Source: a virus
Direction: 5' to 3' (one strand)
Virus record (IMG/VR): IMGVR_UViG_3300024520_000485
Location: 1 to 24,343 of that record
DNA: 24,343 nt
Part shown: piece by piece, positions 57 to 23,958 of the stretch
Position numbering within the stretch: position 1 is the stretch's first letter
Layout: each line of letters opens with the position of its first letter
Position numbers and translations under genes: made by a program
The notes under the pieces: generated by a model
Seen by the model: only the letters and a program-made list of their open reading frames with translations
Told to the model about the DNA's origin: nothing
Databases searched by the model: none

Positions 57-3000
57 TTAAACGTACTCGGCTCGTGTGAACGTCACGCCATTATCCGATG
101 TGGCAGCAGTCGCGATATCCGCTCCGTCAGCATCATTGCGCACCGTCTGCACGGAAGCAGTCTGCAGCAGCTTGTTCCGACTCAGGATATACATCCACCC
201 CATCATGTCCGCCACAGTAGCCGTAGCTGCCGGCACAGCAGCCAGCTCTGTCTGAGTTGTCACTGTGAGTGCCTGGATCGCGTTTCCAGCCCCCTCGACC
301 ACTTCGTACACAGAACTCGAATCCGGGTCCGTAACCCAGTCAGGCGTCACCGTGGCCGTGTCTGTCGAGCCCGTGTAGTCGGAGATCATCCGCGACTGAC
401 CGGAACCCGTTCCGCTTGTGATCTTCACCACGTTCCAGTTCAGCTCGTCATCCGCGAAGGACGAGGCTGCAGCCAGAACGATTGTGCTCGACGTGCCGCT
501 CTGAGCAGTACCGGATGCCAACGCCGTCAGACCGCCTGCGCCACCACCCACATCGTCAGCCGTTTTCGTGGTCAGGGCATCAGCATTGTCCCAGAACGTC
601 TCGAAGTTGGCAGCGATGTTATCCGCCGTCGTTTCCGCGATCGTGTTGTCCAGAAATCCCTGCACCAGACTGTCAACCGCACCGCCCGCCGTGATCACCA
701 GGGAACTGAAGTTAGACGGCAGGTCAGCCGGAACCAGCGCGTCGTAGTCTGTCAACGCCGTATCAGCCTCAGCGTTCACCTCAGCCTTCATCGCTGTCGA
801 CATGCCACCCAGATCAGTTAATCCGGCACCAGCCGTTCCGATCTGCGTCTGGATGTCCTCAGTGTCCGCCTGAATGCCGTCCAACTCAGCCTGCAAGGTC
901 GTGCCGGTGTCGACTTCGATTGCGTCGATGCTTGCTTGCGTCGCAGAAAGGAGATTCACTCCATCGGCGCCCGTGATGATATCCAGATCATTCTGAGCCG
1001 TCGTGAGCGCTGCCGCTGTCGCCAATGTCGCCAGCGTCGTCGGGTAGTCATCAGCCTGGAGTTCGTTCGTGTCGGATTCGATGGCGTCAACGCTCGCTTG
1101 TGTCGCCGCCAGCAGGTCAACACGTCCGAACGGAAGCAATTCGTATGTATTCGTTCCAACCGCCTGAGTGGTCGCTGGTTCGAATGTAAGTGTGTCAGTT
1201 GAAGCCGTGAATCCAGTAATCAGCCTGGTCTGTCCGCTGACGGTCCCGGACGTGAACTTGATTAACCCACCCTTCCAGTAATCGTCGTCAGTTTCAGTGC
1301 GAGCCGCATCAACCATTGTGGTCGTCGAACCTGAATCAGCCGTACCCGTCGTCGCGCCGTGCGCAGGTATCGCTGTCAGCCCGGCACCCGCAGTACCGAT
1401 TTGAGTTTGAATGTCTTCGGTATCTGCTTGAATGCCATCCAGTTCAGCCTGGAGGGTGGTCGACGTGTCTGTCTCGATCGCGTCAATACTGGCCTGTGTC
1501 GCAGACAGAAGATTCACGCCATCAGCACCAGTTAGAATGTCCAAGTCGTTCTGGGCCGTTGTAATTGTCGCAGGAATAGTCGTGCCCGTGTCAACCAGAA
1601 TCGCGTCAACCACAGTATCAATCGCAACGAATCCCGCCGCGCCATTCGCCAGCGCGAACGTGTCACCCGTCTGCACTGTGTGCCCCGTCAGTGTCGTCAC
1701 CGTGTCGCACAACTGGATGTCGGTCCCGGACAGGTCCAGTGAGGTCGTCGGGTTCGCGACGTTGCCCCAGTCAATGCCGACATTGCCACCAGATGTGACG
1801 TCAACATGGAAATCCTGCTTCGTCGAGGGTTTCAGGCTCTTCTCAGCGAGGATGTAAACCTTGTCCGTTGCCTGATACGTGAAGCCGCCCGGGTCTTCCA
1901 GCAAAGTCACTGTCTTCGTAGAACCCGTGTAGTCATCAACCACTCCCACAGTTTTCTGCACGGCAGTGCTGGCATCTTCAATAACGATAGTGCAGCCGTT
2001 ATAAGCGTCGTCATCGGCCGATGCGGACGTCAGTGTGAAACTTGTCTGCGACGAATAGGTGGCAATCGTCGTGTCGGCCAGTAACAGCCGGTCACTGCCG
2101 CCAGCACCTGTGATCCACGCAGCATCACCCCGATCCCGTATGGCTTCCAGTGAATCCGTCGCCGTGCTGAACGTCGCCCCTGCGATGTCCGCAAGGTTGT
2201 CTCCTACCGTAGCGCCCGCACCGAGGTCGGTCAGCGTGCCCAATTTCGGCTGCATATCGGCCGTGTCGACTAGAATGGCGTCCACGACTGTGTCGATCGC
2301 CACAAAACCTGCAGCGCCATTTGCTAATGCGAAGGTGTCGCCCGTTTGTGCCGTGTGCCCGGTCAACGTAGTGACCGTATCGCAAAGCTGAATGTCAGTC
2401 CCTGACAGGTCCAACGCTGTCGTCGGGTTTGCAACGTTGCCCCAATCAATTCCGACATTTCCACCCGACGAGACGTCAACGTGATAGTCCTGGACGGTCG
2501 TCGGCTTGAGCGATGACTCGGCGAGGATATAGATTTTGTCCGTGGCCGCCATCGTGAAAACGCCGGGGTCTTCAAGCAAGGTGATCGTCTTGGTCGATCC
2601 GGCGTAGTCATCAACGATTCCTCTCGCCTTTTGAGCGGCCGTAGACGCATCCTGGATCACGATTGTGCAGCCGTTGTACGCGTCGTCGTCTGTTGATCCA
2701 GCCGTCAATGTGAACGAGGTTTGGGATGCGAGGGTGGCAATTGTCGTATCTGCCATCAGAAGTCGGTCACTACCGCCAGCTCCTGTTGTCCATGCAGAAT
2801 CACCTCGGTCGCGTAACGCTTCCTGCGAATCGGTGGCCGAACTGAATGTCGCACCCGCCATATCCGCCAGGTTGTCACCAACCGTGGCGCCGGCGCCCAG
2901 ATCAGTGATCGTGCCCAGTTTTGGCTGCATGTCAGCAGTGTCAACGAGGATCGTATCCACAACTGTGTCAATCGCTGCGAATCCAGTCGCCCCGTTGGCG

Positions 3001-4226
3001 AGAGCAAACGTATCTCCAGTCTGCGCTGTGTGGCCGGTCAGTGTCGTAACTGTGTCACACAACTGAATATCGGTCGCGGACAAATCGAGTGCCGTCGTCG
3101 GATTTTCGACATTGGCCCAGTCGATCCCAATGTTTCCTGATGCTGTCAGGTTGAGGGTCTGGGGGATCTTTGTGTCGTTCAACGAGTTCGTGTCCGTCTC
3201 GATCGCATCAATCGATGCCTGGGTCGCCGTCAGCAGGTTGACCTGTCCGGCCGGATGCAACTCGTACGTGTGGACAGTGACTGCCTGGGTCGTGGCTGGG
3301 GCGAACGTAATCGTATCCGTGCTCGCCACGAAGTCCGTGATCAGCCTGGACTGGCCATTCAGGTTGCCCGATGTGAACTTGATGATCCCGCCGTTCCAGT
3401 AGTCGTTATCCGCTTCGGTGCGGGCTGAGTCGACCATCGTCGTAGTCGTGCCGCTATCCGCCGTGCCGGTGATCAATGAACCACCGCTCTGATTATTGCG
3501 GATCGCCTCAAGAGAGTCCGTGGATGTGCTGAATGTCGCACCCGCCATATCCGCCAGGTTGTTACCAACCGTAGCACCGGCGCCGAGGTCGGTGAACGTC
3601 CCCAGTTTGCCATCTATGTTCAGCAGGTCGGTAGCTATGTTGGTGTCATTAGGCGTACCCAGAATTGTAAATATCGAGTCCAGACTGTTTACGGTCAACA
3701 CGTTAAGGTTATCGAACCACGCTTCAAAGTTGGTCGCTAAATTACCCGCCGTACTTTCAATCATTGTCGTGTTCAGGACACCCTGCACCAGACTATCAAC
3801 AGCTCCGCCTCCACTGATTACCGTTGAACTGAAGTTCGCCGGCAGGTCAGCAGCAACAACAGCAGGCCCGACATCGTAAAGATATGCCGTCACATCAACG
3901 TCTGTGTCCGCCGCGTTCGGTGACTTCAGCTTGACAAGAACAACCGTGTTCGCCGGAACTATAAACGACTGACTTTGCAGACTTACCCGGACGGCTGTCC
4001 CAACCGACTGATACTCCACACCCCCATTGATCGTGTTTCCGTCAACACTGATTTCAATCTCAAATACACCACCTGTGCCATCGAGGTCTTTGGTCCCGTC
4101 ACCCAATTGGATTGACGCCTGACACAATCTCGCTGCCGACGCGTCCGGAGTATCAGTCAACACCGTGACTTGAGACGTCAGATCACGATCCGCGTTCTCT
4201 GTGTCCAGTTGTTCGATGGCTGCCAT
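57..4226 (-). CDS. Giant mosaic repeat virion protein, probable tail fibre or appendage
   Basis: A 1389-residue protein rich in Thr, Ala, Asp and Gly. Residues 1-120 look like a beta-sandwich head domain. A long unit with a period of exactly 225 residues follows: GIDW(A/G)NV occurs at residues 367, 592 and 817, the third copy being partial. Other modules are duplicated: an ADLP(A/S)NFSS block at 126-173 and 1167-1214, a block with GQ(S/T)RLIT at 255-345 and 962-1052 (diverged third copy near 1240-1312), and a DGIQADTEDIQ block at 889-951 and 1075-1137. I see no catalytic motif. Size, repeats and position after the late virion genes suggest a fibre or other elongated appendage. A GAGGA ribosome site lies 7 bases before the chosen ATG. 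The stop falls near the window edge and the next downstream gene is not visible. Fibre is inference; long repeat virion protein is well supported. Confidence 0.72.
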   Translation of the reverse strand: MAAIEQLDTENADRDLTSQVTVLTDTPDASAARLCQASIQLGDGTKDLDGTGGVFEIEISVDGNTINGGVEYQSVGTAVRVSLQSQSFIVPANTVVLVKLKSPNAADTDVDVTAYLYDVGPAVVAADLPANFSSTVISGGGAVDSLVQGVLNTTMIESTAGNLATNFEAWFDNLNVLTVNSLDSIFTILGTPNDTNIATDLLNIDGKLGTFTDLGAGATVGNNLADMAGATFSTSTDSLEAIRNNQSGGSLITGTADSGTTTTMVDSARTEADNDYWNGGIIKFTSGNLNGQSRLITDFVASTDTITFAPATTQAVTVHTYELHPAGQVNLLTATQASIDAIETDTNSLNDTKIPQTLNLTASGNIGIDWANVENPTTALDLSATDIQLCDTVTTLTGHTAQTGDTFALANGATGFAAIDTVVDTILVDTADMQPKLGTITDLGAGATVGDNLADMAGATFSSATDSQEALRDRGDSAWTTGAGGSDRLLMADTTIATLASQTSFTLTAGSTDDDAYNGCTIVIQDASTAAQKARGIVDDYAGSTKTITLLEDPGVFTMAATDKIYILAESSLKPTTVQDYHVDVSSGGNVGIDWGNVANPTTALDLSGTDIQLCDTVTTLTGHTAQTGDTFALANGAAGFVAIDTVVDAILVDTADMQPKLGTLTDLGAGATVGDNLADIAGATFSTATDSLEAIRDRGDAAWITGAGGSDRLLLADTTIATYSSQTSFTLTSASADDDAYNGCTIVIEDASTAVQKTVGVVDDYTGSTKTVTLLEDPGGFTYQATDKVYILAEKSLKPSTKQDFHVDVTSGGNVGIDWGNVANPTTSLDLSGTDIQLCDTVTTLTGHTVQTGDTFALANGAAGFVAIDTVVDAILVDTGTTIPATITTAQNDLDILTGADGVNLLSATQASIDAIETDTSTTLQAELDGIQADTEDIQTQIGTAGAGLTAIPAHGATTGTADSGSTTTMVDAARTETDDDYWKGGLIKFTSGTVSGQTRLITGFTASTDTLTFEPATTQAVGTNTYELLPFGRVDLLAATQASVDAIESDTNELQADDYPTTLATLATAAALTTAQNDLDIITGADGVNLLSATQASIDAIEVDTGTTLQAELDGIQADTEDIQTQIGTAGAGLTDLGGMSTAMKAEVNAEADTALTDYDALVPADLPSNFSSLVITAGGAVDSLVQGFLDNTIAETTADNIAANFETFWDNADALTTKTADDVGGGAGGLTALASGTAQSGTSSTIVLAAASSFADDELNWNVVKITSGTGSGQSRMISDYTGSTDTATVTPDWVTDPDSSSVYEVVEGAGNAIQALTVTTQTELAAVPAATATVADMMGWMYILSRNKLLQTASVQTVRNDADGADIATAATSDNGVTFTRAEYV
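1587..3128 (-). repeat. Tandem 675-bp in-frame repeat within the fibre gene (2 full copies and 1 partial)
   Basis: Copies cover 3128-2454, 2453-1779 and a partial 1778-1587. Each begins at the codons for GIDW(A/G)NV and continues through IQLCDTVTTLTGHT, LGAGATVGDNLAD, GGSDRLL and YILAE. Spacing of the landmark motif is 225 codons both times. The DNA copies have diverged, mostly at synonymous or conservative positions, so this is an old duplication and not an assembly artefact. Unequal exchange between copies could change fibre length. Confidence 0.85.
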
Positions 4227-5971: not shown

Positions 5972-6331
5972 TCAGTCCTCGATCAAGCACATTTCCAGAT
6001 CGACCGCTGCGGTGTCGGCAATGGCGTACGGCGCTGTCGCAGTCGCTGCAAATCGAAACCTGCAATCCTCCCCAGCGTTCAGCCGGACAAGGTCAGCAAC
6101 GCCAATCCCCGGTCGAATCTCAACAAAGTTCGTCGAGTCGAGATTCCGGAAATACACCATCCCGGGAGTCGTCACGTCTCCGAAGTCCAACTGTTCCTCA
6201 CTGGTGGCGATATTCTGGATGATCCGAGTGAACGCAGTCCCGGAGACCGCCACCTTCACCGGAGGAGCGGAGATCGTGAACGCGACCCCACTCTTCTCGT
6301 AGTGCATGACTGTTTCAGTGGTTACCGTCAT
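5972..6331 (-). CDS. Small beta-rich virion protein, 119 aa
   Basis: A short protein with alternating hydrophobic strands, including PGMVYFRNLDSTNFVEIR, LNAGEDCRFRFA and DTAAVDLEMCLIED. This layout is typical of small jelly-roll or beta-sandwich proteins encoded among tail and head genes of environmental phages. It resembles in size and style the two small proteins at 8052-8417 and 8427-8765. AAGGAG lies 8 bases before the ATG. The start region overlaps the end of the glycosyltransferase gene by 17 bases. Virion component is inference; exact role unknown. Confidence 0.65.
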   Translation of the reverse strand: MTVTTETVMHYEKSGVAFTISAPPVKVAVSGTAFTRIIQNIATSEEQLDFGDVTTPGMVYFRNLDSTNFVEIRPGIGVADLVRLNAGEDCRFRFAATATAPYAIADTAAVDLEMCLIED

Positions 6332-6980
6332 CGCTGGACTCCTTCAGCTGGTTTACGGCTTGAATCAACTCGATCAGCTCGACTCCGTCCACGAAATGAC
6401 GGCAGGGTCTCTCAAAATCAGCCCACACCCGAAACCCGGACTCCTTAGCCCTCTCACAGAACGCCATATCGTTCCCGGCCCTCACACGCCCCCTGCCATC
6501 GAGTTTACGGGTAAAAGCGCCTGACTGCATCATCGGATGCTCAAACACCCTGCGAGCCATCAGAACGCAACCAGTCCCCACAGCGTCCACTTCCTGCAAT
6601 CCATCCTGCGGCTGGAACTCGTTGTAGCCCTGTTCTTCGAAGTTCCTCTTGTACGCATTCATGTACCACGGACGTTCGCCGTTGTTCGTGTTGTGATACA
6701 CGGGCGTCGGGAATCCAACAACGTCTAAATCGTCCTGCACTCGGTCCAGGGGGTTGCCTAGAGGCGGATTATCACTGTCCATCGTCAGCCAGAAATCGTC
6801 CCCGTTGTCCATGAAATCCACGATGCAGTGATGCAGATTATTCTCGAACGGGCGGTGAGTCGGCGCATCCATCCGGACCGTGAACCGAGAATCCTGCAAC
6901 AGTGCGATCGTCGCGAACATGACGTGCTTGTGCACCCAGCCGTCACCGTTGGGGAGCGTGATGTAGACGCGAGGCTTCAT
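6315..6980 (-). CDS. GT-A type glycosyltransferase (family 2-like)
   Basis: 221 residues. A strand DDFWLTMDSDNPP (residues 61-73) carries the DxD motif at D68/D70, which in GT-A enzymes binds the metal and nucleotide-sugar diphosphate. VDAVGTGCVLMARRVF (131-146) matches the acceptor-side segment of family 2-like enzymes. AGNDMAFCERAKESGFRVWAD (168-188) matches the later acidic motif, and H195 may be the third metal ligand. No membrane segment is seen, so it should be cytoplasmic. Its start overlaps the stop of the small upstream gene (ATGA) and its end overlaps the next virion gene by 17 bases, so it is expressed with late genes. It may glycosylate a virion protein or a host surface polymer; substrate unknown. 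Confidence 0.8.
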   Translation of the reverse strand: MKPRVYITLPNGDGWVHKHVMFATIALLQDSRFTVRMDAPTHRPFENNLHHCIVDFMDNGDDFWLTMDSDNPPLGNPLDRVQDDLDVVGFPTPVYHNTNNGERPWYMNAYKRNFEEQGYNEFQPQDGLQEVDAVGTGCVLMARRVFEHPMMQSGAFTRKLDGRGRVRAGNDMAFCERAKESGFRVWADFERPCRHFVDGVELIELIQAVNQLKESSDDGNH

Positions 6981-8426: not shown

Positions 8427-8765
8427 TTATCGAATGTTGGCGTTAAGACTGCCGGTCGCACCTGTGACAGCCAGGAGTGTAATCACAAGCGCCTCGTTTT
8501 TTGAACCCCCTGACAATCCACGCTTGAACGTGAACTGCCCGACATTGTTCACAGCGTCAAACTGTCGCTTCCAGATAACCGTCCCGCCAGCACTGACGAT
8601 GAGGGTTCCTGCACCCTGAGTAGGGTCGTCATAGGACGCATCCATCTCATCAATCACCCACTCGTGATCTTCATCAGCGGCAACCGTAATCACGGCAGCC
8701 GTGCTGACCGCAGGATTGTGCGTGTACGCTGTGGACTCGGCATCAAGTGATTTTTGAGTTCTCAT
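8427..8765 (-). CDS. Small beta-sandwich virion protein, 112 aa
   Basis: The frame is open upstream to 8831, but the ATG at 8765 is preferred: it overlaps the adaptor stop by one base (TGATG), matching the coupling seen elsewhere in this operon. The product begins MRTQKSLDAES and has strands AAVITVAADEDHEWVIDEMD, AGTLIVSAGGTVIWKRQF, GQFTFKRGL and EALVITLLAV, ending SLNANIR. This arrangement is typical of small phage beta-sandwich proteins that decorate heads or tails. It follows the adaptor array directly. Function unproven. Confidence 0.65.
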   Translation of the reverse strand: MRTQKSLDAESTAYTHNPAVSTAAVITVAADEDHEWVIDEMDASYDDPTQGAGTLIVSAGGTVIWKRQFDAVNNVGQFTFKRGLSGGSKNEALVITLLAVTGATGSLNANIR

Positions 8766-11700
8766 CAGTCGTAGTACGCCCCCTCGTAAGGAGTTGCATA
8801 AACGCTCATGTCGCGACCGCGACCGTCCCATTCACCACGATCGAGGTTGTCGTGATTGATGCCCAGAGTTTCGGGCGCCTGAGCCTGTTGGTCAAGCTCG
8901 ATTGATGCACCCAGTCTCTGAGCATACAGATCCCGGTACTGAGTTGGTGCTGCAATCGCCAGACAAGCCGCAAGAATCGCCTCTGCGTGCTCGCGTCCAC
9001 CCAGAGGGGTTTGTGTCGTCACCAGGGTCGTCCCAGCCAGTCGAGCCCGGTAGTGAATCTCGTACACAGCATTGGCGCGGGGGAAGAACTCAATCCGTCG
9101 CGTGGTCCCGCTCGTACCCCCCAGTGGAGAGTGCGAAGCTACCCGTGGAGTCCCTGATGAGGTCGACGAGAATGTGTGCCGGTATCGCTGCAGATCCCGC
9201 TGCGACATGATCTCAACCTCACCCAGACCCGCACTGGACGATCGGTAGTGCATCGGCCCCTCGATCGACTCAACGTCTGAATCCAGCGAGTAGAACTGCC
9301 GCACGATGCTGTAGGTCGTACCTGCTGCCGCTGTGGCGCTCAGGTCCGTCAGGGTGAGTTGAGTGCCGCTGTCACGGGTATCGACCGTGTAGACGGTCCC
9401 TGAGAGGTCCAGCTCGCCGTCTGCGGCCCATGTCGGCCACGTCCCACTCGCCAGAGTCACCACACCAGCGGCAATCGTGACTGTCCCGGTAGAATAGGCT
9501 GCTGAGGTCGTGAAGGTCTTCTGTTCCAGCAGGAACGACCAGCGATGGTGCCGGTGCTGCGAGTTCCCGGTCAGGGACGGCTTGAGGAACTCCTGATAGC
9601 CCCGATTGAGCCATGACTTCACCCGCTGCAGGTCATCATTCGACCATGCCCCCGGATTCGGACCCATCTTCATCGCAGCGCCGATCTCCTGCTGCAGCCA
9701 GTCAACCGTTCCGAACGTAGGCTCAGTCGCCAGCCAGGTCGACGCCTCAGTCGCTTCAGCCCGCTTGTCAACCGCGCGAGAAGCCGCAAGCCGTTGCAGG
9801 AACACCTGATACGCCTGTCCGTATTTATCTGAACCCTCAGCCAGAATCGCCCGACAGCTCGACAGGAGAGTGTCCGCGTGCGCTCTTCCCCCATAAGGGT
9901 AGTTTGCGGTGGGAGTCAGCGACTTGGGCACAACTGTGTACCGGTACGTCACGGTCCCCGCTGCATCTGCGTCAGGAGTCGGATAGACCACCATCTCATG
10001 CTGCTGCTCTGCCGCCCCTGTCGTCGCCTTAGCCCGGATACAGTACACGAACGGGTCGTCAGTCGTGTCTTTGGTCGACTGCAGGGAGCGAATCTCAGCG
10101 TCGGTAATCTTCGTGAGTGACCGCCGAGTATCCGCCGTCGCGAACGAGACAATCCCCTCTAAATCACCAAAGTCGTTCGGCAACGTGTAGGTGTGAGTCG
10201 ACGCCACCAGAGTCAGGGTTGAGGTCGGGCACAGAAAGCTCCACTTGTTCGGCGGCTTCTCTGCAGCACCGTCCGCAATCGGCATTGGAGGCGGCGAATA
10301 GAACTGCTGACACCCCCTCTGAATGACATCATCGACTCGGCGCTCGGCTGGACGGGACCATGAGTCGTAGTCTGCACCAAACCCCAGTTCATCCCCTAGA
10401 ACCCGCTGCAACCACTGGTACGTTCCATAGGTCGGCTCGGTCGCCGGCCACGACTGGTCTTCCGGTTCCTCAACCCGCTCATCGACCGACCGTGATGCAG
10501 CCAGTCGCTGGAGAAACACATCGTACGCCCGAGAGAACGCTTCCTGGCCTTCAGCCATGATGGCCCGACACGAAGCCATGATCGTCTCTGCGTGGGCACG
10601 CCCTCCGTAGGGGTACTCAGCAGCAGTCGTCAGAACCGCCGGCACAATGGTGTACCGGTAAGTGACCGTTCCCGCCGACTGCGCATCCGGGGTCGGGTAG
10701 ACAATGATTTCCTTCGTCTGCTCAGCCGTCGAGTCGGTCGTCTTCGCCCGAACGCAGTAGACCGAAGGATCACCCGACTTACTGTTGGTCGACTGCTTGC
10801 TTCGAATCTCGCCTTCAGTCACTTTTGCCAGTGATCGCCGAGTATCTCCCACCGCGAACGACACTGGCCCACTCATATCGCTGAAGTCTGCCGGAAGCGT
10901 GTACGTCGTCGTCCCATCCACCAGGGTGACAGTGGCTGTCGGGCACAGGAACGACCACTTGATCGGCGGAGAGAACCCTTCCTTTGTTGGCATCGGAGGC
11001 GGGAAATAGAACGCCTGCAATCCACGCTGGATTGCGTAGTCAATATGCCGTTCTTCCTCGTGAGACCAGGTTGCCGAGTCCCACCCGTACCCCGCTCTGT
11101 TTCCCAGACCTCGCTGGAGCCATTGATAGGTTCCGTACGTTGGAGTCGTGTCTGGTGACGCAGCAGAATCCGCCTTGTCGACTTCCCGGTCCACCTCGAC
11201 TGATGCGGCCAGTCGTTGCATGAAGACCCCGAACGACTGCTGGTACTGCTGGTCGTCTTCGTGGAGCTTCGCCAGGCAACTCGCCAGAATCGTGTCAGCG
11301 TGAGTAATCCCACCGTACGGATAGTTCGCAACCGTCGTCAGAAGCCGAGGCTCGACGCTGTACCGATACGTCACCTCAAACGCTGCGTTCGGGATCGGGT
11401 AGACCACCATCTCCCTCTGTTGAGTCGCGGTCGACTCAGTCTTCCTTGCCCTCACCGCATAGTTCCGAGGCGCCGCTGTCGTCGTGCCATCCACAGACAA
11501 CTGAGACCGGATACTGTCCTCAGTCACCTTAGTCAGCGACCGCTTCCCACTGGATTCGACGTACGACACCTCACCGCTCATCGCCCGGAAGTCGGACGGC
11601 AATGTGTACTCGAATTCCGAAGCAATGAAGTTCAGTTTCGCCGTCGGGCGCAGGAAGGACCATTTGTGACCGGCAGCCTGCTGTCCCTCACCACCCGGTA

Positions 11701-12577
11701 GCGGCGGAGGCGTGTAGAACTGCTGAAGACCGCGTTGAATCACATCGTCAACGTGCCGCTCCTCTGCGTGGTCCCAGGTGTTGAAGTCGGCTCCGTACCC
11801 TGCCGCTTTTCCAATCCCTCGCTGAAGCCATTGGTACGTTCCGTAGGTCGGATCGGTGACCGGGAAGGACATTGCCTGTTCCCGATCCCGAATCCCTTTG
11901 TCGATTGCGATGGAAGCCGCCAGCCGCTCCTGATAGGCGTTCTCCCACTTCGTCTCCGCTGGCCCATCGACCCCGATCTTGCTGTACCGCTCTGCCTCCG
12001 CCATACACGCGGCAACGATAGTCTCTGAGTGGTGCTGTCCTCCGAACAGGAATGTGTTACTGGCCGCAGCATCGACCTGGACGTTGTACGAGTAGGTCAG
12101 AACGTAAGAGGCGTCCGGGATCGGGTAGAACAGGATTTCGGTTCGCTGACCTGCTGACGTCGTCGGAACCGTGTCCTTCACCCGGGTCGCGGCGTAATCC
12201 GGGCGTCCGTTCGCCGTACCTTCACTTGCTTTCTTCTGCAACAACTGCTGCATCGAGATCAGGACAATCTTCGTCCCGGCTCCCTCGGATGAGATCACCA
12301 GGTCGTTGTTCAGATACCCCATGCACGTATCGGGCAGATTGTACTCCTGAGTCCCCGACGCCATCGTGATGGTCGCTGTGGGATGCAGGAACGTCCAATC
12401 GTAGGCGCCCTCCTCTGTCACCGGGTTCAGGAATCTCCTCAACCCGGCATTAAGGAACAGGTCGACCCGTTCCAGTTCCTCGCTGTCCGCGTCATTGATG
12501 CCGAACCCATACCCGAGCATCATCGATACTCGTGCGCGAACGTCATCCCGCGTCAGTGACAGAGTGGACTCAGCCAT
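8765..12577 (-). CDS. Five-fold tandem head-tail adaptor-like polyprotein, 1270 aa
   Basis: The chain consists of five homologous domains: residues 1-238, 243-465, 479-702, 714-940 and 952-1235. Each has a helical entry (VDDVIQRGLQQFY in domain 2), a WSFL-PTATLT strand, YTLP-DF, a middle with RSL-K-TE-IRS, a VVYP-PDA strand followed by TYRY, then YPYGG--HA-T---SC-A and QRLAAS--VD. This pattern matches single-domain phage adaptor (connector, P22 gp4-like) proteins that ring the portal. Linkers share T-PTYGTYQWLQR. Domains 2-4 are closest to each other; domain 5 carries an extra beta insert (about 1027-1095, VTLASGTWPTWAADGELD) seen in some adaptors. GAGGG precedes the ATG by 7 bases. The adaptor family is inferred from motif pattern and position; the five-copy architecture is seen directly. 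Confidence 0.75.
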   Translation of the reverse strand: MAESTLSLTRDDVRARVSMMLGYGFGINDADSEELERVDLFLNAGLRRFLNPVTEEGAYDWTFLHPTATITMASGTQEYNLPDTCMGYLNNDLVISSEGAGTKIVLISMQQLLQKKASEGTANGRPDYAATRVKDTVPTTSAGQRTEILFYPIPDASYVLTYSYNVQVDAAASNTFLFGGQHHSETIVAACMAEAERYSKIGVDGPAETKWENAYQERLAASIAIDKGIRDREQAMSFPVTDPTYGTYQWLQRGIGKAAGYGADFNTWDHAEERHVDDVIQRGLQQFYTPPPLPGGEGQQAAGHKWSFLRPTAKLNFIASEFEYTLPSDFRAMSGEVSYVESSGKRSLTKVTEDSIRSQLSVDGTTTAAPRNYAVRARKTESTATQQREMVVYPIPNAAFEVTYRYSVEPRLLTTVANYPYGGITHADTILASCLAKLHEDDQQYQQSFGVFMQRLAASVEVDREVDKADSAASPDTTPTYGTYQWLQRGLGNRAGYGWDSATWSHEEERHIDYAIQRGLQAFYFPPPMPTKEGFSPPIKWSFLCPTATVTLVDGTTTYTLPADFSDMSGPVSFAVGDTRRSLAKVTEGEIRSKQSTNSKSGDPSVYCVRAKTTDSTAEQTKEIIVYPTPDAQSAGTVTYRYTIVPAVLTTAAEYPYGGRAHAETIMASCRAIMAEGQEAFSRAYDVFLQRLAASRSVDERVEEPEDQSWPATEPTYGTYQWLQRVLGDELGFGADYDSWSRPAERRVDDVIQRGCQQFYSPPPMPIADGAAEKPPNKWSFLCPTSTLTLVASTHTYTLPNDFGDLEGIVSFATADTRRSLTKITDAEIRSLQSTKDTTDDPFVYCIRAKATTGAAEQQHEMVVYPTPDADAAGTVTYRYTVVPKSLTPTANYPYGGRAHADTLLSSCRAILAEGSDKYGQAYQVFLQRLAASRAVDKRAEATEASTWLATEPTFGTVDWLQQEIGAAMKMGPNPGAWSNDDLQRVKSWLNRGYQEFLKPSLTGNSQHRHHRWSFLLEQKTFTTSAAYSTGTVTIAAGVVTLASGTWPTWAADGELDLSGTVYTVDTRDSGTQLTLTDLSATAAAGTTYSIVRQFYSLDSDVESIEGPMHYRSSSAGLGEVEIMSQRDLQRYRHTFSSTSSGTPRVASHSPLGGTSGTTRRIEFFPRANAVYEIHYRARLAGTTLVTTQTPLGGREHAEAILAACLAIAAPTQYRDLYAQRLGASIELDQQAQAPETLGINHDNLDRGEWDGRGRDMSVYATPYEGAYYD
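8873..12577 (-). repeat. Five tandem adaptor-domain repeats within one gene
   Basis: Approximate units are 12577-11864, 11851-11183, 11143-10472, 10438-9758 and 9724-8873. Unit spacing is about 236-238 codons between the linker motifs at residues 244, 480, 716 and 954. Homology is clear in protein and visible in DNA around the linkers (for example ACGTTCC-TAGGTCGG on the plus strand near 10420 and 11840). The divergence between copies rules out a simple assembly duplication. Confidence 0.85.
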
Positions 12578-14227: not shown

Positions 14228-15295
14228 TCAGACCAGGTAGGCGCGGAAATTCGCTCGACGGTTCTGGAAGTACAGGTTGCACTCCCCGTCGATGTGCATG
14301 TCGCGGGTGTTGTGTGCCAGCGGGTTCGGCTTCGCCTTGTGACGACGCATCTCCCGGCCACGCTTGAAGAAGAACTTCGCCGTGTTCCAGTTGATCCCGT
14401 ACAGGGGACTCGTGGAGTCGTAGGCGTCGTTCCCTGAGTGCGTCAGGACTGGAACCCAATCCACGGGAACGCCCTGGAACATCGGACGTCCGCTCGGACT
14501 CTTTTCCAGCCCGGCGAGGTCCGTCAGGTTGTCATTGCGGCTGTTGAGGAACCGACCAAGCTGTTCCACAACATTGTAGACCGTGTAGAAGCCCCACTGC
14601 GGTTGTCCGCCACCCAGTTCCGGGAACTTATGAGGCGGGGTGAAGTTGCAGAACGAGGTCGCTTTTCGCCACTTGGCAAACAGGTCGTCGTCCGTGTACT
14701 TGCTCCACGTGAAGGTGTAGTTCTTCCACCGCGCATAGGTGGCACCGAGAAGGTTTCCGGCGCCCGAAGAGAAGCCCGACGGGTCGCCGCCGTTGAAGCC
14801 TTCGGTCGCGTTCGACTGCAACCAGAGCGGAACTCCAGAGATGGGCATCGGGTCCTGGCTGTCACTCGAAGGCGCAGTCCAGAAGTGATTCTCCATCTGG
14901 TCGAACATCTCATTGAAACAGGAGTGCTCGCGAGCCAGCACCAGTTCAATGATCTGGGTCGTGTCGTCGCCCTGAAACTCATCCTCGTTGATGTCATACG
15001 ACCAGTTGGTCGTCCACATCGCCCAATCCTGCTGGGCTGTCTTCATGATGTTGGTCACACCGGTCTGGTCTCGACTGAAGAGACCCGTGAACCGGAAGTT
15101 CCCCTGGTTGTCGACCTGGACGCGCCATTTCTGACGCAGTCCGCCGGCCACCGGGGTCTTCTTCTGCCGCATGAACCGCTCAGCAACGATGTGATGCTGA
15201 TTGTCCAGCGAGATGTCGACCCACTTTTTCTTCTGATTCCGATCGATGGTGGTTTCAACCAGGTCATCGATCTCCTGTGGAAGCAAAGTCGCCAT
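14228..15295 (-). CDS. Major capsid protein (HK97 fold)
   Basis: About 355 residues from the ATG at 15295; an in-frame ATG at 15304 would have no spacing from the AAGGGA site, whereas 15295 has 9 bases. The product starts MATLLPQEIDDLVETTID, a common opening for phage capsid proteins. The C-terminal part (FQGVPVDWVPVL, then PLYGINWNTAKFFF and LYFQNRRANFRAYLV) fits the P-domain and A-domain end of HK97-type major head proteins. It follows a scaffold-like gene, as is usual. It should form the icosahedral shell with the scaffold. No N-terminal protease-processed delta domain is evident, consistent with a separate scaffold. Confidence 0.85.
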   Translation of the reverse strand: MATLLPQEIDDLVETTIDRNQKKKWVDISLDNQHHIVAERFMRQKKTPVAGGLRQKWRVQVDNQGNFRFTGLFSRDQTGVTNIMKTAQQDWAMWTTNWSYDINEDEFQGDDTTQIIELVLAREHSCFNEMFDQMENHFWTAPSSDSQDPMPISGVPLWLQSNATEGFNGGDPSGFSSGAGNLLGATYARWKNYTFTWSKYTDDDLFAKWRKATSFCNFTPPHKFPELGGGQPQWGFYTVYNVVEQLGRFLNSRNDNLTDLAGLEKSPSGRPMFQGVPVDWVPVLTHSGNDAYDSTSPLYGINWNTAKFFFKRGREMRRHKAKPNPLAHNTRDMHIDGECNLYFQNRRANFRAYLV

Positions 15296-15339
15296 GTCTG
15301 GCATTCCCTTGTTCTGGGGCCAGACATGACGTCAAAGAA

Positions 15340-16452: not shown

Positions 16453-16929
16453 CTATCTCGTTTTCTTTCGGTCCAGTATCTCCTTGACCGCCGGATCCCG
16501 GGCGATCACTTCAGCCTGCGCACGAATCATCTTCTTCGTCTCTTTCTCCGACCGTGGATTCTTCGCTCGCGCCGCTGCCTGCTCAGTCTGGCCCTTGTAC
16601 TCACCAGCCCCCGCGTTGCTCATGTCCGCCAGCCCGCGAGCTTTGAGGTAATCCTGCTTGTTCGCCTCACTGAAGGTCTTGATTGACCCATCAGGCTGAA
16701 CCTCGACCCCCACGAGCCCCTGTTCCTGAATCCACTGGGCGTGCTCTTTGGCCTGCGCCGGACTCACAGCCGCTGCCATCGAGGTGTGCCCGGTGGCGTT
16801 GTATGGCGCATGCCCACCAGGAGCCTGTCGACCGTCAATCACCCCCTGAATCCCCCGACCTCGACTGGCATACGCCATTCTGTCCGCCTCGGTCGCCTTC
16901 TCACCCCTGATAATCAGCGTGTACGCCAT
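16453..16929 (-). CDS. Hypothetical head-region protein, 158 aa
   Basis: The product starts MAYTLIIRGEKATEADRMAY, with a Gly-rich middle (RGRGIQGVIDGRQAPGGH). The second half is helical and basic (EKETKKMIRAQAEVIARDP). The ATG overlaps the portal stop by one base (TAATG), with GGGAG 7 bases upstream. Between portal and scaffold, phages often encode small head or scaffold-related proteins. I do not recognise the family. The coding call is strong because of spacing and overlap. Confidence 0.68.
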   Translation of the reverse strand: MAYTLIIRGEKATEADRMAYASRGRGIQGVIDGRQAPGGHAPYNATGHTSMAAAVSPAQAKEHAQWIQEQGLVGVEVQPDGSIKTFSEANKQDYLKARGLADMSNAGAGEYKGQTEQAAARAKNPRSEKETKKMIRAQAEVIARDPAVKEILDRKKTR

Positions 16930-18767
16930 TACTGCGCTCCCTGAGGTTGTCCTGCCTGCAGTGCCTGGACGGTCTGGACTCGCTGTGCGGCCGGTCCGCC
17001 CATTGTGGAGATATTCTCCCTGATTGAATGGTTTGGACCGCTGGAGCCGCCTCCGGGAGCCGGAGGTCCACCCTGCTGCATTGCGGGATCGGGGATATTC
17101 ACCTCGATCAGCTCGGCAATACGGGGCTGATTGCTCAAATCTGCCAGTTCCTGAGCAAATAGCGGCACATTTATCTGAATTCCCTGCGGAGCGAGGATTG
17201 CGTTCGCGTTCGCCACGTTCGCAATCATCTCAATCGCGCTGGTCATCTCCTGAGCGACCGTTGCTGGAGATTTGTACTGCATCGAGTACGGAGCGACCGT
17301 CAGGTGGTACTGGAGCAGATCGCCCTCGCGCTGATCCGCCGTCCAGTGCACCTCGACCGGATCCTGGAGCCCCGTCACCGTGAACTGCGAGTTGACTTCC
17401 CTCTCCTCGTCGACCCACACGAAGTGACCCAGACTCCGCACATCCCGCTCTACGAACTGTACAACCTTATGCCTCATCCCCTCTTCCATCCCACTGAGCT
17501 GCTCCTGAATAATCCCTTCCTGAGTCGCCGTCTTTGCCTGAGGCCCCAATCCTGCCTTACCTTCCAGATTTCCCGCAGACCGGTTGTGGATCCCTTCCAG
17601 AATCTGAGTGAACGCCAGATTCACCTGATTCGGGCCGTCCAGCTCGACCGAGTTGAAGTTGTCAGTGTTGTTGACCTTGATCCATTCCCCGTCCTGGGCG
17701 TCTCTCAGGGCGATCGCGTCTTTCCCGTCCCCTGAGAACATATGTGCTCTCTTCTGGCCCCGTGCCTGCCTCGCCAGCTTCCTCAAAAGCGAGTTGTAGA
17801 GCTTGTGCATCGCTTCCAGGTCTTCTGCCGGTGATTTACCCCGCACGTTGTCTGGGACGGCTCCAAACTGCAGTTTGTTGTACGGACCACTCTCTGGACC
17901 GTCGTACTCGTCCTGCCACAGCACTTTGTGACCTGAGGTGATCAGCATCGCCCGATTTTCGAACGGGAGCCACACGTCAGCCACTCGGACCATCGGCTCT
18001 ACGTTGTCATCGCCGATCCCGGAATCCTGAGCAGACAGCTCGCTGGTTCTCGACTCGCCGCCCTCAAACAGGGTATTCGTCCAGCGTGAGGTGTTCTGGA
18101 GGGCATCCTTGTCCGCTTTGGACAATCGGTCGTCTTTCTCAAGAACGCTCCGTGGAACGCTGTACTCGTCCCAGAAGTACCGACATCTCTGCCAGGCACT
18201 CGCCGTGTGATCGAAACCGAAGTCGTCCGGGCTGATCCGCATCGTCATCGGTTCGCCGGGATCCAGCCAGATTGTCTGAGCCATCCCCTGCTGCTGCTGG
18301 CGGTACTCTTCCCAGGCCGAGTCATCAGCGAACGGACCAGGCTCGGTCGGGAGTTCCGGGTTGTCGTACTCCCGCTCACCAGCTGGAGAAATGAACGTCT
18401 TGGAAATCCCCATCCCGAAGAACGCATCCAGAACGATCGACGACAGCGTGTGCGTGTAGTTGATTTCCAGAAGCAGCTGATTCAGGGTTGCCTGAAACTT
18501 CTTTGAGAACGGCTTCAGTTCCCGCATCGAGGTTGAGATCAGCACCTGCGGGTCGTTGGCAACCAGACTGGTCAGGTACGCATCGACCGTCAGTGCCATG
18601 AGGTTCGACATTGTGGTGTTTCGAACCGTCCCCTCACCCCACCCGGATCCGCAATACTGCTTGATCAGGTCGTGCCGGCGATCCCGGAACCCCCGGTGGT
18701 TGCGCCACGAACTCTCCATCGCGTTAAACAATCGCGACGAACCCTTTTTGGTCGAGAGAGAGATCAT
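16929..18767 (-). CDS. Portal protein
   Basis: 612 residues. It forms the dodecameric ring at one capsid vertex through which DNA enters. Key features are the helical N-terminal region, the FGAVPDNVRGKSPAEDLEAM segment (301-320) followed by a long helix HKLYNSLLRKLARQARGQK, and a central AGNLEGKAGLGPQAKTATQE segment (398-417), all typical of podovirus-type portals. The C-terminal about 50 residues are Gln, Gly and Pro rich (QQGGPPAPGGGSSGP) and probably flexible. Its ATG overlaps the terminase stop (ATGA), with GGAG 6 bases upstream. Size and order (terminase, portal, scaffold, capsid) agree with the call. Confidence 0.88.
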   Translation of the reverse strand: MISLSTKKGSSRLFNAMESSWRNHRGFRDRRHDLIKQYCGSGWGEGTVRNTTMSNLMALTVDAYLTSLVANDPQVLISTSMRELKPFSKKFQATLNQLLLEINYTHTLSSIVLDAFFGMGISKTFISPAGEREYDNPELPTEPGPFADDSAWEEYRQQQQGMAQTIWLDPGEPMTMRISPDDFGFDHTASAWQRCRYFWDEYSVPRSVLEKDDRLSKADKDALQNTSRWTNTLFEGGESRTSELSAQDSGIGDDNVEPMVRVADVWLPFENRAMLITSGHKVLWQDEYDGPESGPYNKLQFGAVPDNVRGKSPAEDLEAMHKLYNSLLRKLARQARGQKRAHMFSGDGKDAIALRDAQDGEWIKVNNTDNFNSVELDGPNQVNLAFTQILEGIHNRSAGNLEGKAGLGPQAKTATQEGIIQEQLSGMEEGMRHKVVQFVERDVRSLGHFVWVDEEREVNSQFTVTGLQDPVEVHWTADQREGDLLQYHLTVAPYSMQYKSPATVAQEMTSAIEMIANVANANAILAPQGIQINVPLFAQELADLSNQPRIAELIEVNIPDPAMQQGGPPAPGGGSSGPNHSIRENISTMGGPAAQRVQTVQALQAGQPQGAQ

Positions 18768-20650
18768 GTGAACTCCAGGTCATCGATTGCGGCGGCCAGT
18801 TCTCTATCCTGCTGTTTCAGCCTGTACCCCACCGTCCCATAACCCGGCTCCTGCTTCGGTGCCGACTCGGGAACGTGAGGCTGTTCTCGCATTCCAAGAT
18901 AGCAGCAACCAAACGCGATGGCGACATCTCCATGCAGCAACCCCTTGTCTGACCCAAACTCCGAAGTGTTGCTCCGGACATGCTTTACCTTCCCGTTGGA
19001 GGTCCATTCGTACTCCATCAACTCGGAGATGATCCGCTCCGACCGGATGAAGACCTGCCTCTGCTTCGAAGCCGACAGAGCCACACTGAGAATGTTGACC
19101 GGACCTGCAGAGGGCATCACGTAACCCAGTTTATCCGTCCGTCTGTCGTACCCGATCGCATCGACCGTTCGCCGGTAGATGTTCGAATACCCAATCTCGG
19201 CGTGTCGCTTGAGCCACTGCTGACCGGGGCCTCCATTCACTTCAGGAACGATCATCGCATTCCCGAACAGGATGCACACCGCGATACACAGGTCGCACCA
19301 GTCGTCCGGGAGAATGTCCCCGGTCGCGTATTCGAAGACCTGCCCGCCGGTTCGCTTATTCAATCCCACAAGCGCCGAATCGCTCGACATTACCCCTGCT
19401 GAGATATCCGTCCCAAACACGTAGTCGTCAATCGGCGGCTCACCATCCACGAGCGGACACCACAGTTTCACCGGGCCTTTAGGAACGTGCATCCACGAGA
19501 TTGTGCGATCTTCCGGATCAACCGCGATCCGACCTTCCCACCACGGCTCCCGCAGTTGCTCCTCCCGGATAATCTTGATCGCCGTCTCATCACAGAACCG
19601 CTCACCACTCCCCAGGAAGTCCAGATTCAGTTCCTGGGCAATCTCCAGCGGCGACTCCGACCGTTCCACCTGTCGGTCGTACCACGGACTTCGCGCTAGT
19701 GGTCCGGTGAAGCACAGCTGATCGAAGTCGTAATCTTCCTTCCAGTCGTAGGTCTCGGGATCCAGATCGACCCTTTGGTCCCCGATCATCTTGTAAAGGC
19801 CCGCGCTCTTATCCGGATGCTCCGTCCAGTGAATCCAGATAGTGTGAGTCGCAGGGTTTCTCACCTTCCGGAAGAACGCCTCTCCCGTCCCATGCCTTCC
19901 GAACGGGGTTGAGTTGAAGAATCGGCTGTTCGAGACGTCCCGGGTGGACGCGAGAATCTTGGACATCCCCTGCATCTTCGCGGCTTCGTCCAGCAGGATC
20001 GCGGTACGGCGGTCACCGGTCGCCATATTGTCGACGGTCGCCTCACCATCGAACTTGCTTTCCGTATCCAGGTTCTCGCAGTGCTTCCTGGACGCCACCC
20101 GGTTCATTCTGGGAGTCAGCCACCACGGGAGAGTCTTCCACCAGGAGTCCAGCTTCTTGAACAGGGCTTTCTCAGAATCACCCTCGACCAGCTCCGCTTT
20201 CTCAGACGCGAGCAGGAACTGCTGCTGGTTCCGGAAATGCCAGCGGTGTTCAAGCGCCATCAGGCACATCCACGAGGCACCCATGTCCCGGGATTTGACG
20301 ATGCACACGTCCCGCTTACCGATGGACTCAGACAGGTCTACGAGCGCTCTGTCCTGGAACGGATACGTGATGAATGGGCGCATCGGCTCATCAGGAAATT
20401 CCTTGGGATTGAGCGCAAATCCCATGCAGTTGATGTAGAACAGAATGTCCCGGCTGCACATAGTCCAGAGATCCTGGCGCAGCTCAGCCGAGGAATCCGC
20501 CAGCTCCAGAACCTGACGCCGGAACTTCAGATTCCCAATGAGATCCTTGGGCACCAGATGCTCATAGAACCACGACGTCAGCCCTGTCGGGATCTCCGAC
20601 TCTCGGTTCGCCGCGAGAGCTTCCTCAATCAGTATCCGGCTTTCTGGCAT
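18764..20650 (-). CDS. Terminase large subunit (packaging ATPase and nuclease)
   Basis: The frame is open further upstream, but the ATG at 20650 is preferred (MPESRILIEEAL, 628 residues); it overlaps the preceding gene by 26 bases. The ATPase half has a deviant Walker A, VKSRDMGASW (118-127), with the lysine displaced as in many phage terminases, a Walker B, AILLDEAAK (217-225), and a coupling motif FNSTP (245-249). The nuclease half has RNase H-like acidic residues D415 (FGTDISAG), E470 (VPEVNG) and D575 (LLHGDVAIA). The enzyme cuts concatemeric DNA and pumps it into the head through the portal encoded next. Very likely correct. Confidence 0.92.
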   Translation of the reverse strand: MPESRILIEEALAANRESEIPTGLTSWFYEHLVPKDLIGNLKFRRQVLELADSSAELRQDLWTMCSRDILFYINCMGFALNPKEFPDEPMRPFITYPFQDRALVDLSESIGKRDVCIVKSRDMGASWMCLMALEHRWHFRNQQQFLLASEKAELVEGDSEKALFKKLDSWWKTLPWWLTPRMNRVASRKHCENLDTESKFDGEATVDNMATGDRRTAILLDEAAKMQGMSKILASTRDVSNSRFFNSTPFGRHGTGEAFFRKVRNPATHTIWIHWTEHPDKSAGLYKMIGDQRVDLDPETYDWKEDYDFDQLCFTGPLARSPWYDRQVERSESPLEIAQELNLDFLGSGERFCDETAIKIIREEQLREPWWEGRIAVDPEDRTISWMHVPKGPVKLWCPLVDGEPPIDDYVFGTDISAGVMSSDSALVGLNKRTGGQVFEYATGDILPDDWCDLCIAVCILFGNAMIVPEVNGGPGQQWLKRHAEIGYSNIYRRTVDAIGYDRRTDKLGYVMPSAGPVNILSVALSASKQRQVFIRSERIISELMEYEWTSNGKVKHVRSNTSEFGSDKGLLHGDVAIAFGCCYLGMREQPHVPESAPKQEPGYGTVGYRLKQQDRELAAAIDDLEFT

Positions 20651-21527
20651 ACCACCCCAGCTCCAGAAGAGTTGTGAGCACGGCGGCCGAATCAGCCGCC
20701 ACCAATCGCTTGATCTCGCCCTTGATATCAGCCTCAGCGCCACGCACCAGGCGATCGATTACGGCGAACTTCTGCCGCAGGTCGTCAGTCCGGATGGCGT
20801 CGTCTTCTGAATCATCCTTGGATTTCTTGTCGAAATACTTCAGCGCGGCGTCCATAAACTTCGCGCGGTTACCCCGACAGAACTGAAGCATCCCCCACGC
20901 ACCCACACTTGGCGCGTCAGCCGGCTCAATCTTCTTGTTCTCGAACTGGTTGTACGCCCACTCAAAATCCCGAGAGAAGTCCGCCTCACCCACTTCCTGA
21001 CCCAGTTCCTCAATCTGAGCGGCAATTCGAGCCTCTTCCTTCGACTCCTTCTCGTTCTCAGCCTCCGCCTCGGCCCGCGCCTTTCTTTCCGCCTCCGCCT
21101 CGGCTTCTTCCTGTTCCCGCCTGGCCGCTTCCTGAGCCGCCTTAGCTGCTTCTCGCTCCTCTTTGGCTTTCTCCCGGTCCTCTGCGATTTTCTCCTTCGC
21201 TGCCAGCTTCTTATTCTTCTCCGCCTGCTCTTTTTCCTGCTTCTCCTTGAACTCGTCCCGTAACTCCTCCACAGCTTTCACCAGCATGTCCGATAACTCT
21301 TTCGCTTCCGGGTCGCCAGGTGGCGGATAGAACCGCAGCGCCAATCGGAATGCGTCGTCGATCAGATAGCGGCGGCCGTCGTACTGGCCCCGCCTGAACG
21401 TCTTCTGCAGGTGTCGGAATTGTTCCAGCTCGCCGGACTTTTCCAGGCGATTACAGGCGTCGACTTTTCTCTCGATTTCCGGATCCCACGGTCCCTTCTG
21501 TTTGGGTGCCGCCTTTTTCTTTGCCAT
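20625..21527 (-). CDS. Coiled-coil protein in the small-terminase position
   Basis: About 300 residues from the ATG at 21527, which has GGGGGAG 9 bases upstream; an ATG at 21536 also exists but is too close to that site. The product starts MAKKKAAPKQKG. Residues 14-70 form a compact N-terminal region (GRRYLIDDAFRLALRFY), 74-178 are an extreme Lys-Glu-Ala coiled coil, and 185-290 a helical C-terminal domain (DFEWAYNQFENKK through VLTTLLELGW). Its end overlaps the terminase start by 26 bases. Position suggests a small terminase or packaging partner, but the long coiled coil is unlike the usual short small terminase. Function is therefore tentative. Confidence 0.6.
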   Translation of the reverse strand: MAKKKAAPKQKGPWDPEIERKVDACNRLEKSGELEQFRHLQKTFRRGQYDGRRYLIDDAFRLALRFYPPPGDPEAKELSDMLVKAVEELRDEFKEKQEKEQAEKNKKLAAKEKIAEDREKAKEEREAAKAAQEAARREQEEAEAEAERKARAEAEAENEKESKEEARIAAQIEELGQEVGEADFSRDFEWAYNQFENKKIEPADAPSVGAWGMLQFCRGNRAKFMDAALKYFDKKSKDDSEDDAIRTDDLRQKFAVIDRLVRGAEADIKGEIKRLVAADSAAVLTTLLELGWYARKPDTD

Positions 21528-21686: not shown

Positions 21687-22394
21687 ATGCCTGAATCAGC
21701 CCTTGTGTATGCGCGCTATTCCCCACGTCCCAAACAGAAGCGTTTGAAGATGGAAGACGGGGAGACGATCGAACATCAGTTCTCTGTCTGCAAAAAATAC
21801 TGCGAGATGAGGAACCTGACTGTCTATGGATTCCTGTCCGATGAAGGCGAGAGTGCTCGGAAGACCCCGTTGTTCGACAGACCCAACGGTGGCAGGCTCC
21901 AGCACCCCCCATCCGAAGTGAAGCACATTATCGCTGCCAAGCTCGACCGGTTCTTCCGGGATACCGTCAATGGGATCCAGATGCTGAAGTTCTGGTCCGA
22001 CAAAGGCATCACCGTCCACTTCGCTGACCAGGGCGGTTGTTCATTCAACGTCGAGACCGCTACTGGCCGGCTCCTGATGCGAACCCTGCTGTCGTTCGGG
22101 GAATTCGAGGCAGATAACTCATCCGAGCGCACATCGGCCGTCATGAAGCATCGTCAGGCGAATGGCGAGGTCATGTCCAAGCGATTGCCGTTTGGAAGGA
22201 TGCTCGACCCCAACGACCCACATCGGACCGTCTGTTGTGACCGCGAGGTGAATATCATCCGTGAGGTCAGGAAACTCCGAGACGACGGTCTGACTCTACG
22301 GAAAATCGTCGACATCATGGGACACATCCCACTCCGGGACGCTGGCTGGTCCCCGGAACGAGTCAACATTCTCCTTAAATCAGAATGCGTGTAG
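21687..22394 (+). CDS. Short serine recombinase (resolvase/integrase family)
   Basis: 235 residues. The catalytic serine is S12 in YARYS (8-12), with R10 beside it. Further conserved positions are R65 (FDRP), and R88 and R91 (KLDRFFRD). The GRLLMRTLLSFGEFEAD stretch (127-143) is the long E-helix that binds the crossover site. The C-terminal part (KRLPFGRMLD, then VNIIREVRKLRDDGLTLRKI) matches the start of the recombinase domain of large serine integrases, but the protein ends at GWSPERVNILLKSECV, where those enzymes continue into a zinc ribbon. It may be an integrase, resolvase or invertase. It sits beside the divergent control region. A GAGGAAAACAG sequence precedes the ATG. Confidence 0.85.
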   Translation: MPESALVYARYSPRPKQKRLKMEDGETIEHQFSVCKKYCEMRNLTVYGFLSDEGESARKTPLFDRPNGGRLQHPPSEVKHIIAAKLDRFFRDTVNGIQMLKFWSDKGITVHFADQGGCSFNVETATGRLLMRTLLSFGEFEADNSSERTSAVMKHRQANGEVMSKRLPFGRMLDPNDPHRTVCCDREVNIIREVRKLRDDGLTLRKIVDIMGHIPLRDAGWSPERVNILLKSECV

Positions 22395-23028: not shown

Positions 23029-23549
23029 TGCGATTAGTGATCCGATGGCTGATTCGACGTGATATGGCTGAAGTTCTGCAGGTCGAGAACTCCTGCTTCG
23101 AGTTCCCGTGGTGCGAGGATGACTTCCTTGGGTATCTGTGGCAGAGAAACTGCATCGGCATGGTCGTCGAGCATGAGAATGCGATTGTGGGGTTCTTCCT
23201 GTACGAGCTAAAGGTGGACCACCCGATAGTTCACACCATCGCCGTGTCGCCATCTTGGCAAGGTCAGGGCGTGGGCAGGGCAATCGTCGAGAAGCTGATT
23301 GAAAAGATCTCAAAGCAGCGCAGGACGCACATGAAGGCACGGGTGCGGGAGACCAACCTGGACGCGCAGTTGTTTCTGCGGGCAACAGGGTGGCGAGCAG
23401 TGGGGGTCGATCGGTCACCGTACGACGAGTCAGACGAGGACGGCTACCGGTTCGAATATTGGCTGGAGTGGCCGAAACCACTGGACGACATGGAAGACAA
23501 GTTTGTCGAGGATGCGGCTGATTCTGCTTACAGAGGTAACCAAGCCTGA
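23028..23549 (+). CDS. RimI-like GNAT acetyltransferase
   Basis: 173 residues from the ATG at 23028; AAAGGAG lies 5 bases upstream, so a GTG one codon earlier is less likely. The acetyl-CoA motif A is clear: IAVSPSWQGQGVGRAIVEKL (71-90), containing Q78-x-Q80-G-x-G83. FEFPWCEDDF (24-33) and VRETNLDAQLFLRATGW (106-122) match RimI-type enzymes that acetylate protein N-termini, such as ribosomal S18. By eye, two positions considered catalytic in RimI are changed: the Glu before VR is Arg (R105) and the usual Tyr is Leu (L117). An acidic tail follows residue 150. It could acetylate a different target or act as a modified homologue. Confidence 0.8.
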   Translation: MRLVIRWLIRRDMAEVLQVENSCFEFPWCEDDFLGYLWQRNCIGMVVEHENAIVGFFLYELKVDHPIVHTIAVSPSWQGQGVGRAIVEKLIEKISKQRRTHMKARVRETNLDAQLFLRATGWRAVGVDRSPYDESDEDGYRFEYWLEWPKPLDDMEDKFVEDAADSAYRGNQA

Positions 23550-23721
23550 CAGCGTATCGGGTGTCGGGTCCGGTCGGCTCAGGTCGATTTGCCAGGACGT
23601 TTCGAACCACACCCGGTGCGCTGGCTTTTACGAGGGGGAGAACGATGAAGTACGGCTGGTGCCGTTGAGTGTTGAGCCTGCTGTGCAACTACTAAAAGGG
23701 GGAGCGAAACATGGCGCGTGA
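23512..23721 (+). CDS. Possible small protein, 69 aa, overlapping both neighbours
   Basis: An open frame covers the 161-base gap after the acetyltransferase. It starts within the end of that gene (38-base overlap) and stops 11 bases inside the next gene. The product begins MRLILLTEVTKPDSVSG and ends with EVRLVPLSVEPAVQLLKGG, resembling small FlbD-like phage proteins (a hydrophobic strand, a variable middle and a closing S-x-E-x-V motif). The ribosome site is poor (GAGG abuts the ATG). The alternative is a non-coding gap; an internal GAGGGGGAG with ATG at 23645 leads only to a 7-codon frame. Confidence 0.45.
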   Translation: MRLILLTEVTKPDSVSGVGSGRLRSICQDVSNHTRCAGFYEGENDEVRLVPLSVEPAVQLLKGGAKHGA

Positions 23722-23956: not shown

Positions 23957-23958
23957 CG

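Follow-up and report, generated by a model that had tools for sequence, protein, structure and literature searches.

An uncultured phage encodes five head-to-tail adaptor domains in one protein, which suggests a tail built from covalently linked rings

The head-to-tail adaptors of phages SU10 and T7 (gp11 in both) are proteins with a single domain that combines a helix bundle with a beta domain serving as a fiber dock, and they form one ring per virion that is bound to the portal by a C-terminal embracing loop in SU10 (PMC9509320) and by a C-terminal embracing helix in T7 (PMC6702177). A more elaborate architecture is known from crAss001, whose tail barrel consists of five stacked dodecameric rings in about 23 nm that are formed by the paralogous ring proteins R1-R4 encoded in separate genes, and the authors of that study state that other podoviruses had been seen with only one such ring made of one protein (PMC10172136). 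Here we describe a viral open reading frame (ORF) in which five adaptor domains of the SU10 family are fused into one chain, together with relatives carrying one to seven such domains either fused or as separate genes. We found no published fused adaptor array in literature searches for fused or tandem adaptors, so that the new aspects are the fusion itself and the copy numbers of up to seven, while the adaptor fold and the stacking of several adaptor-fold rings in a barrel are already known.

Five adaptor domains in one open reading frame

The window analyzed here is the whole of a virus record of 24,343 bp (IMG/VR record IMGVR_UViG_3300024520_000485). A sequence-only reading of this window had proposed that a chain of 1270 residues contains five homologous head-tail adaptor-like domains in tandem with conserved linkers, of which domains 2-4 are closest to each other, the end domains diverge, and domain 5 carries a beta insert. 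This observation is confirmed, with the addition that the ORF lies on the minus strand (Table 1). Pfam detects a single family in the protein, SU10_adaptor (PF24175), in five stretches with a whole-protein E-value of 1.2e-47 and 163 bits against a cut-off of 27, while domain 3 (D3) alone scores 46.9 bits and 67 of the 73 domains of our family alignment match the profile at 0.001. SU10 gp11 itself hits PF24175 at 2.5e-29, whereas the crAss rings hit their own families PF24228, PF25702, and PF25710, none of which was found in the protein studied here. An alignment of the five segments has 25 invariant columns, with 52-63% identity among D2-D4 and only 26-28% identity between D1 and the other four, and D5 differs by a beta-rich insert of about 70 residues and a C-terminal tail. 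The linker segments (TEPTYGTYQWLQ) are conserved, as the sequence-only reading had claimed.

The array is not an assembly artefact for practical purposes: although tandem repeats can mislead assemblers and two contigs of the seven-domain type (L014 and L017) break inside the array, a second contig of 30.6 kb (IMGVR_UViG_3300024517_000076, hereafter G001) that is 99.5% identical over 23 kb carries the same ORF with one differing codon, DNA identity among D2, D3, and D4 is only 66-69% and thus too low for an assembly duplication, and the seven-domain array lies complete in two contigs.

Structure prediction and a structure search of one domain had been named beforehand as checks of the adaptor assignment. 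An AlphaFold2 model of D3 made with 73 relatives (pLDDT 95.7, pTM 0.87) shows the adaptor fold of helical hairpins flanking a beta domain, and a Foldseek search of the PDB placed phage portal-tail adaptors on top, namely those of cyanophage A4 (9k09, 1.2e-8), VP1, SU10 (gp11, 7z47_B, 1.7e-6), Pa223, and GP4, followed by three chains of the crAss001 tail barrel (7qoj, 7.4e-5). The suggested comparison with P22 gp4 was therefore dropped in favor of SU10/T7-type gp11 with a beta domain. Sequence searches of the PDB with the protein, the domain profile, and a profile of the putative nozzle (see below) found nothing, and the top 50 structural hits in BFVD were all 410 aa or shorter, so that no tandem version is evident there.

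In gene order, the virion block encodes the terminase, the portal protein, a 158-aa protein and an acidic 367-aa protein (probable scaffold), the probable major capsid protein (MCP), two small proteins, the adaptor array, several small beta or decoration-type genes, and a repetitive protein, followed in G001 by proteins of 110 aa and 887 aa. Sequence family, predicted fold, and position in the head-tail gene block thus agree on an adaptor. The 887-aa protein is conserved in most relatives at the nozzle position, and in the seven-domain phage its 891-aa homologue follows the adaptor directly together with a 109-aa homologue of the smaller protein. We treat it as the nozzle by inference only, because the identification rests on position, conservation, and a weak beta-propeller hit. 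With this inferred nozzle, the array has the same place between the portal and capsid genes and the nozzle gene as the gp11 adaptors of SU10 and T7.

Table 1. Features of the window, with positions in the 24,343-bp record.
Position	Strand	Feature	Basis
8765..12577	-	Five-domain fused adaptor (ring) protein, 1270 aa	ORF; PF24175 five times (see text)
11849..12577	-	Domain 1 (aa 1-243), "first" ring class, inferred to be nozzle-side	Alignment; tree placement (see text)
11144..11848	-	Domain 2 (aa 244-478), middle ring class	Alignment; tree placement (see text)
10436..11143	-	Domain 3 (aa 479-714), middle ring class	Predicted structure (see text)
9722..10435	-	Domain 4 (aa 715-952), middle ring class	Alignment; tree placement (see text)
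8768..9721	-	Domain 5 (aa 953-1270), "last" ring class, inferred to be portal-side, with beta insert and C-terminal tail	Tree placement (see text)
9299..9517	-	Beta-rich insert of domain 5 (about aa 1021-1093), similar to an insert in lone adaptors such as L027; possibly a fiber-dock elaboration	phmmer of the insert region against L027 4e-18, weaker to L024/L028 5e-5
8768..8887	-	C-terminal tail (LGINHD...ATPYEGAYYD), candidate portal-embracing segment, once per chain	Tail profile (see text); same place as the C-terminal embracing loop/helix of SU10 and T7 gp11
16929..18767	-	Portal protein, 612 aa (inferred partner of the last domain)	phrog_332 6e-9, phrog_1216 portal 0.02; homologues in the relatives
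18764..20743	-	Terminase large subunit, 659 aa	phrog_2 1.4e-15
14228..15304	-	Probable major capsid protein, 358 aa	Homologous (5e-90) to the conserved ~350-aa protein between portal and adaptor in relatives; MCP assignment inferred from size and position
57..4226	-	Repetitive protein, 1389 aa	780-aa homologue just upstream of the seven-domain adaptor
6315..6980	-	221-aa protein amid the virion genes	phrog_1574 (unknown function) 2.8e-8; glycosyltransferase-type phrog_12406 3.7e-4
21687..22394	+	Serine resolvase/recombinase-like protein, 235 aa	PF00239 3e-20 on the G001 copy
23030..23975		Strain-variable segment	G001 stops matching here and resumes at 23975 with 94% identity

Relatives with one to seven domains, fused or split

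Profile-guided scans of viral contigs (numbered with the prefix L) yielded many lone single-domain adaptors and a series of arrays. Fused arrays comprise 7 domains (L007 and L015; 1686 aa), 5 domains (the window and L004), 4 domains (L097; 975 aa), at least 3 domains (L011, where the contig ends), and 2 domains (L094; 504 aa), while arrays split across adjacent genes show the arrangements 1+2 (L018, L072, and L073), 2+1+1 (L081-L084), and 1+1+1 (L085-L087). Outside these contigs, tblastn of the window protein, L097, and two adaptors of L086 against 50,697 phage records found nothing, and two scans of bacterial and archaeal genome contigs found no relatives, though these were motif-based so that absence is only weak evidence.

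The domains of fused and split arrays are positional orthologues. In a maximum-likelihood tree of 53 domains, D1 of the window groups with the first domains of the 2+1+1 arrays (L082 and L084; 100/99), D2-D4 form one clade (100/99) that is joined to the second domain of these arrays (96/94), and D5 groups with their tailed last genes (98/93) or, in a tree without the latter, with lone single-domain adaptors (96/88). A wholly internal clade of 11 rows holds middle domains of seven arrays (86/91). Different classes were amplified in different proteins, since D1-D6 of the seven-domain protein group with D1 of the window (100/95) and the four-domain protein amplified its own first class, while the window's protein amplified the middle class. 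Position labels require 5 changes on the tree compared to a mean of 15.8 when permuted within arrays (0 of 5000 permutations as low), and 3 compared to 12.3 when amplified copies are collapsed (again 0 of 5000). The arrays therefore share an order of distinct parts irrespective of whether these are fused. The two-domain protein L094 is an exception, because its domains group with lone adaptors and are not clearly of the first and last classes. Alignments of three-domain segments were unusable because MAFFT placed the relatives on D3-D4 only, and mixed alignments were too diverse for pattern scans.

Lone adaptors end in a conserved segment right after the last helix (typically LGYNGDxSD...YNG). 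A profile hidden Markov model (HMM) trained on these tails hits 42 of 48 lone adaptors and, within arrays, only the last domain: D5 of the window (weakly, at 4e-2), D7 of the seven-domain protein (2e-3), the last domain of L018, L072, L073, and L094, and the last gene of L081-L085. No internal domain is hit, including D1-D4 of the window, and a tail of the four-domain protein L097 is visible by eye only. The C-terminus of SU10 gp11 has no obvious sequence likeness to this tail when compared by eye, and a portal-embracing role of the tail is inferred by analogy. Two contigs, L071 and L106, encode two adaptor genes at opposite ends of the virion block (33-866 and 7965-8678 in L071; 3-485 and 7989-8702 in L106), of which one lies just before the capsid gene (with the tail in L071) and the other, tail-less, lies immediately before the nozzle homologue.

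A possible stack of covalently linked rings

The sequence-only reading had offered three meanings of the array, i.e., that one chain supplies several ring positions (for example, three central domains times four chains to give twelve), that chains stack several rings into an extended neck, or that the array has become another tail part. This interpretation is partly supported: The adaptor assignment is right and the stacking of rings is the best-supported option, the lateral arrangement is disfavored, and the closest precedent, the five-ring barrel of crAss001, had not been named. In the reading that we favor (with a probability of about 0.72), twelve chains would assemble on the dodecameric portal of a short-tailed phage with D5 forming the portal-side ring and its C-terminal tail gripping the portal as the embracing loop of SU10 gp11 does, while D4, D3, and D2 would follow as middle rings away from the head and D1 would meet the nozzle. 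The result would be a barrel of five stacked, covalently linked dodecameric rings instead of one, probably working like the crAss barrel whose rings come from separate genes.

Our analysis directly establishes the presence of five adaptor domains in one chain, the adaptor fold, copy numbers of 1 to 7 among relatives, the existence of the same positional classes as separate genes elsewhere, and a lone-adaptor tail at the last domain only, while the number of twelve chains, their axial stacking and polarity, portal binding by the tail, nozzle contact by D1, and a barrel length of roughly 20 nm are inferred from sequence and by analogy. This inference is based on domain counts of 5 and 7 that do not divide 12, the single tail per array that would fit one portal site per chain, the positional orthology with separate ring genes, the gene order in L071 and L106, and a modeled linker of about 17 residues (one helix ends at 224 and the next starts at 242) that is long enough for a rise of about 46 Å per ring as in crAss001. 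However, an AlphaFold2 model of D3-D4 left the relative orientation of neighboring domains undetermined (pTM 0.49, linker pLDDT below 50), so that the geometry of the stack rests on these indirect arguments.

We conjecture that fusion fixes the stoichiometry and order of the rings in one assembly step and that repeat number sets tail length. In a bolder version that we consider only slightly more likely than not, a group of short-tailed phages builds its tail barrel from fused ring proteins with the repeat number (2 to 7) as a genetically encoded ruler, made by tandem duplication of the adaptor and evolved several times by amplifying different ring classes. These arrays suggest that multi-ring necks are more widespread than previously seen, that they arise repeatedly by duplication of a single adaptor, and that the rings can be fused into one chain. 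The series of 1 to 7 domains with split and fused versions of the same rings makes the evolution of tail length directly testable, because barrel length should scale with domain count.

Among alternative explanations, an unlikely but best-surviving one is a polyprotein that is cut at its linkers into single ring proteins, which would then stack as in crAssphages without covalent links. Relatives do encode the same rings as separate genes, and the linker is predicted with low confidence and may be flexible. However, the linker-side motif TEPTYGT is conserved at the junctions of the window's protein and at the D1-D2 junction of L081, and a similar YGSYQW segment is the N-terminus of unfused middle proteins (L072), so that it looks structural, and no protease was recognized in the window by Pfam or PHROGs. 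Similarly doubtful is the possibility that only the tailed last domain sits in the neck ring while the others have become appendages such as fiber docks or a collar, which would be in line with the fiber-dock role of the beta domain in SU10 and T7 and with several possible fiber or decoration genes near the adaptor. Yet, the domains keep the conserved motifs of the complete fold including both helical hairpins, and tail-less adaptor genes stand next to the nozzle homologue in L071 and L106. Lateral fusion, in which one chain would supply several neighboring positions of one or two rings and fewer than twelve chains would make the neck, is slightly less likely still: linkers of this length could also reach the next subunit in a ring and D2-D4 are similar to each other, but total and central domain numbers vary freely among relatives, the single tail would leave most portal sites ungripped, and the first, middle, and last classes are position-specific and exist as separate proteins in other phages.

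Additional features of the window and its relatives

The resolvase-like protein of the window is encoded on the opposite strand and conserved beside the terminase end in the seven-domain phage, which raises the question of a temperate lifestyle or a local inversion. Internal DNA repeats were found in both the window phage and the seven-domain phage, which also share the repetitive protein. In L098 (7048-8322, 8345-14492, and 14505-14798), the last adaptor domain of a 1+2 array is split: The array ORF stops after the beta domain, and its two C-terminal helices plus the tail form a separate 98-aa ORF about 6 kb downstream, with a cassette in between that includes a 1502-aa protein with five laminin-G domains (likely a fiber), so that a fiber cassette seems to sit inside an adaptor gene. 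Finally, adaptor domains in L010 (3860-5164) and L018 (585-1676) have an extra N-terminal region of about 130-170 residues that is perhaps akin to the separate, weakly BppU_N-like protein of about 110 aa next to the nozzle homologue in G001 and G002.
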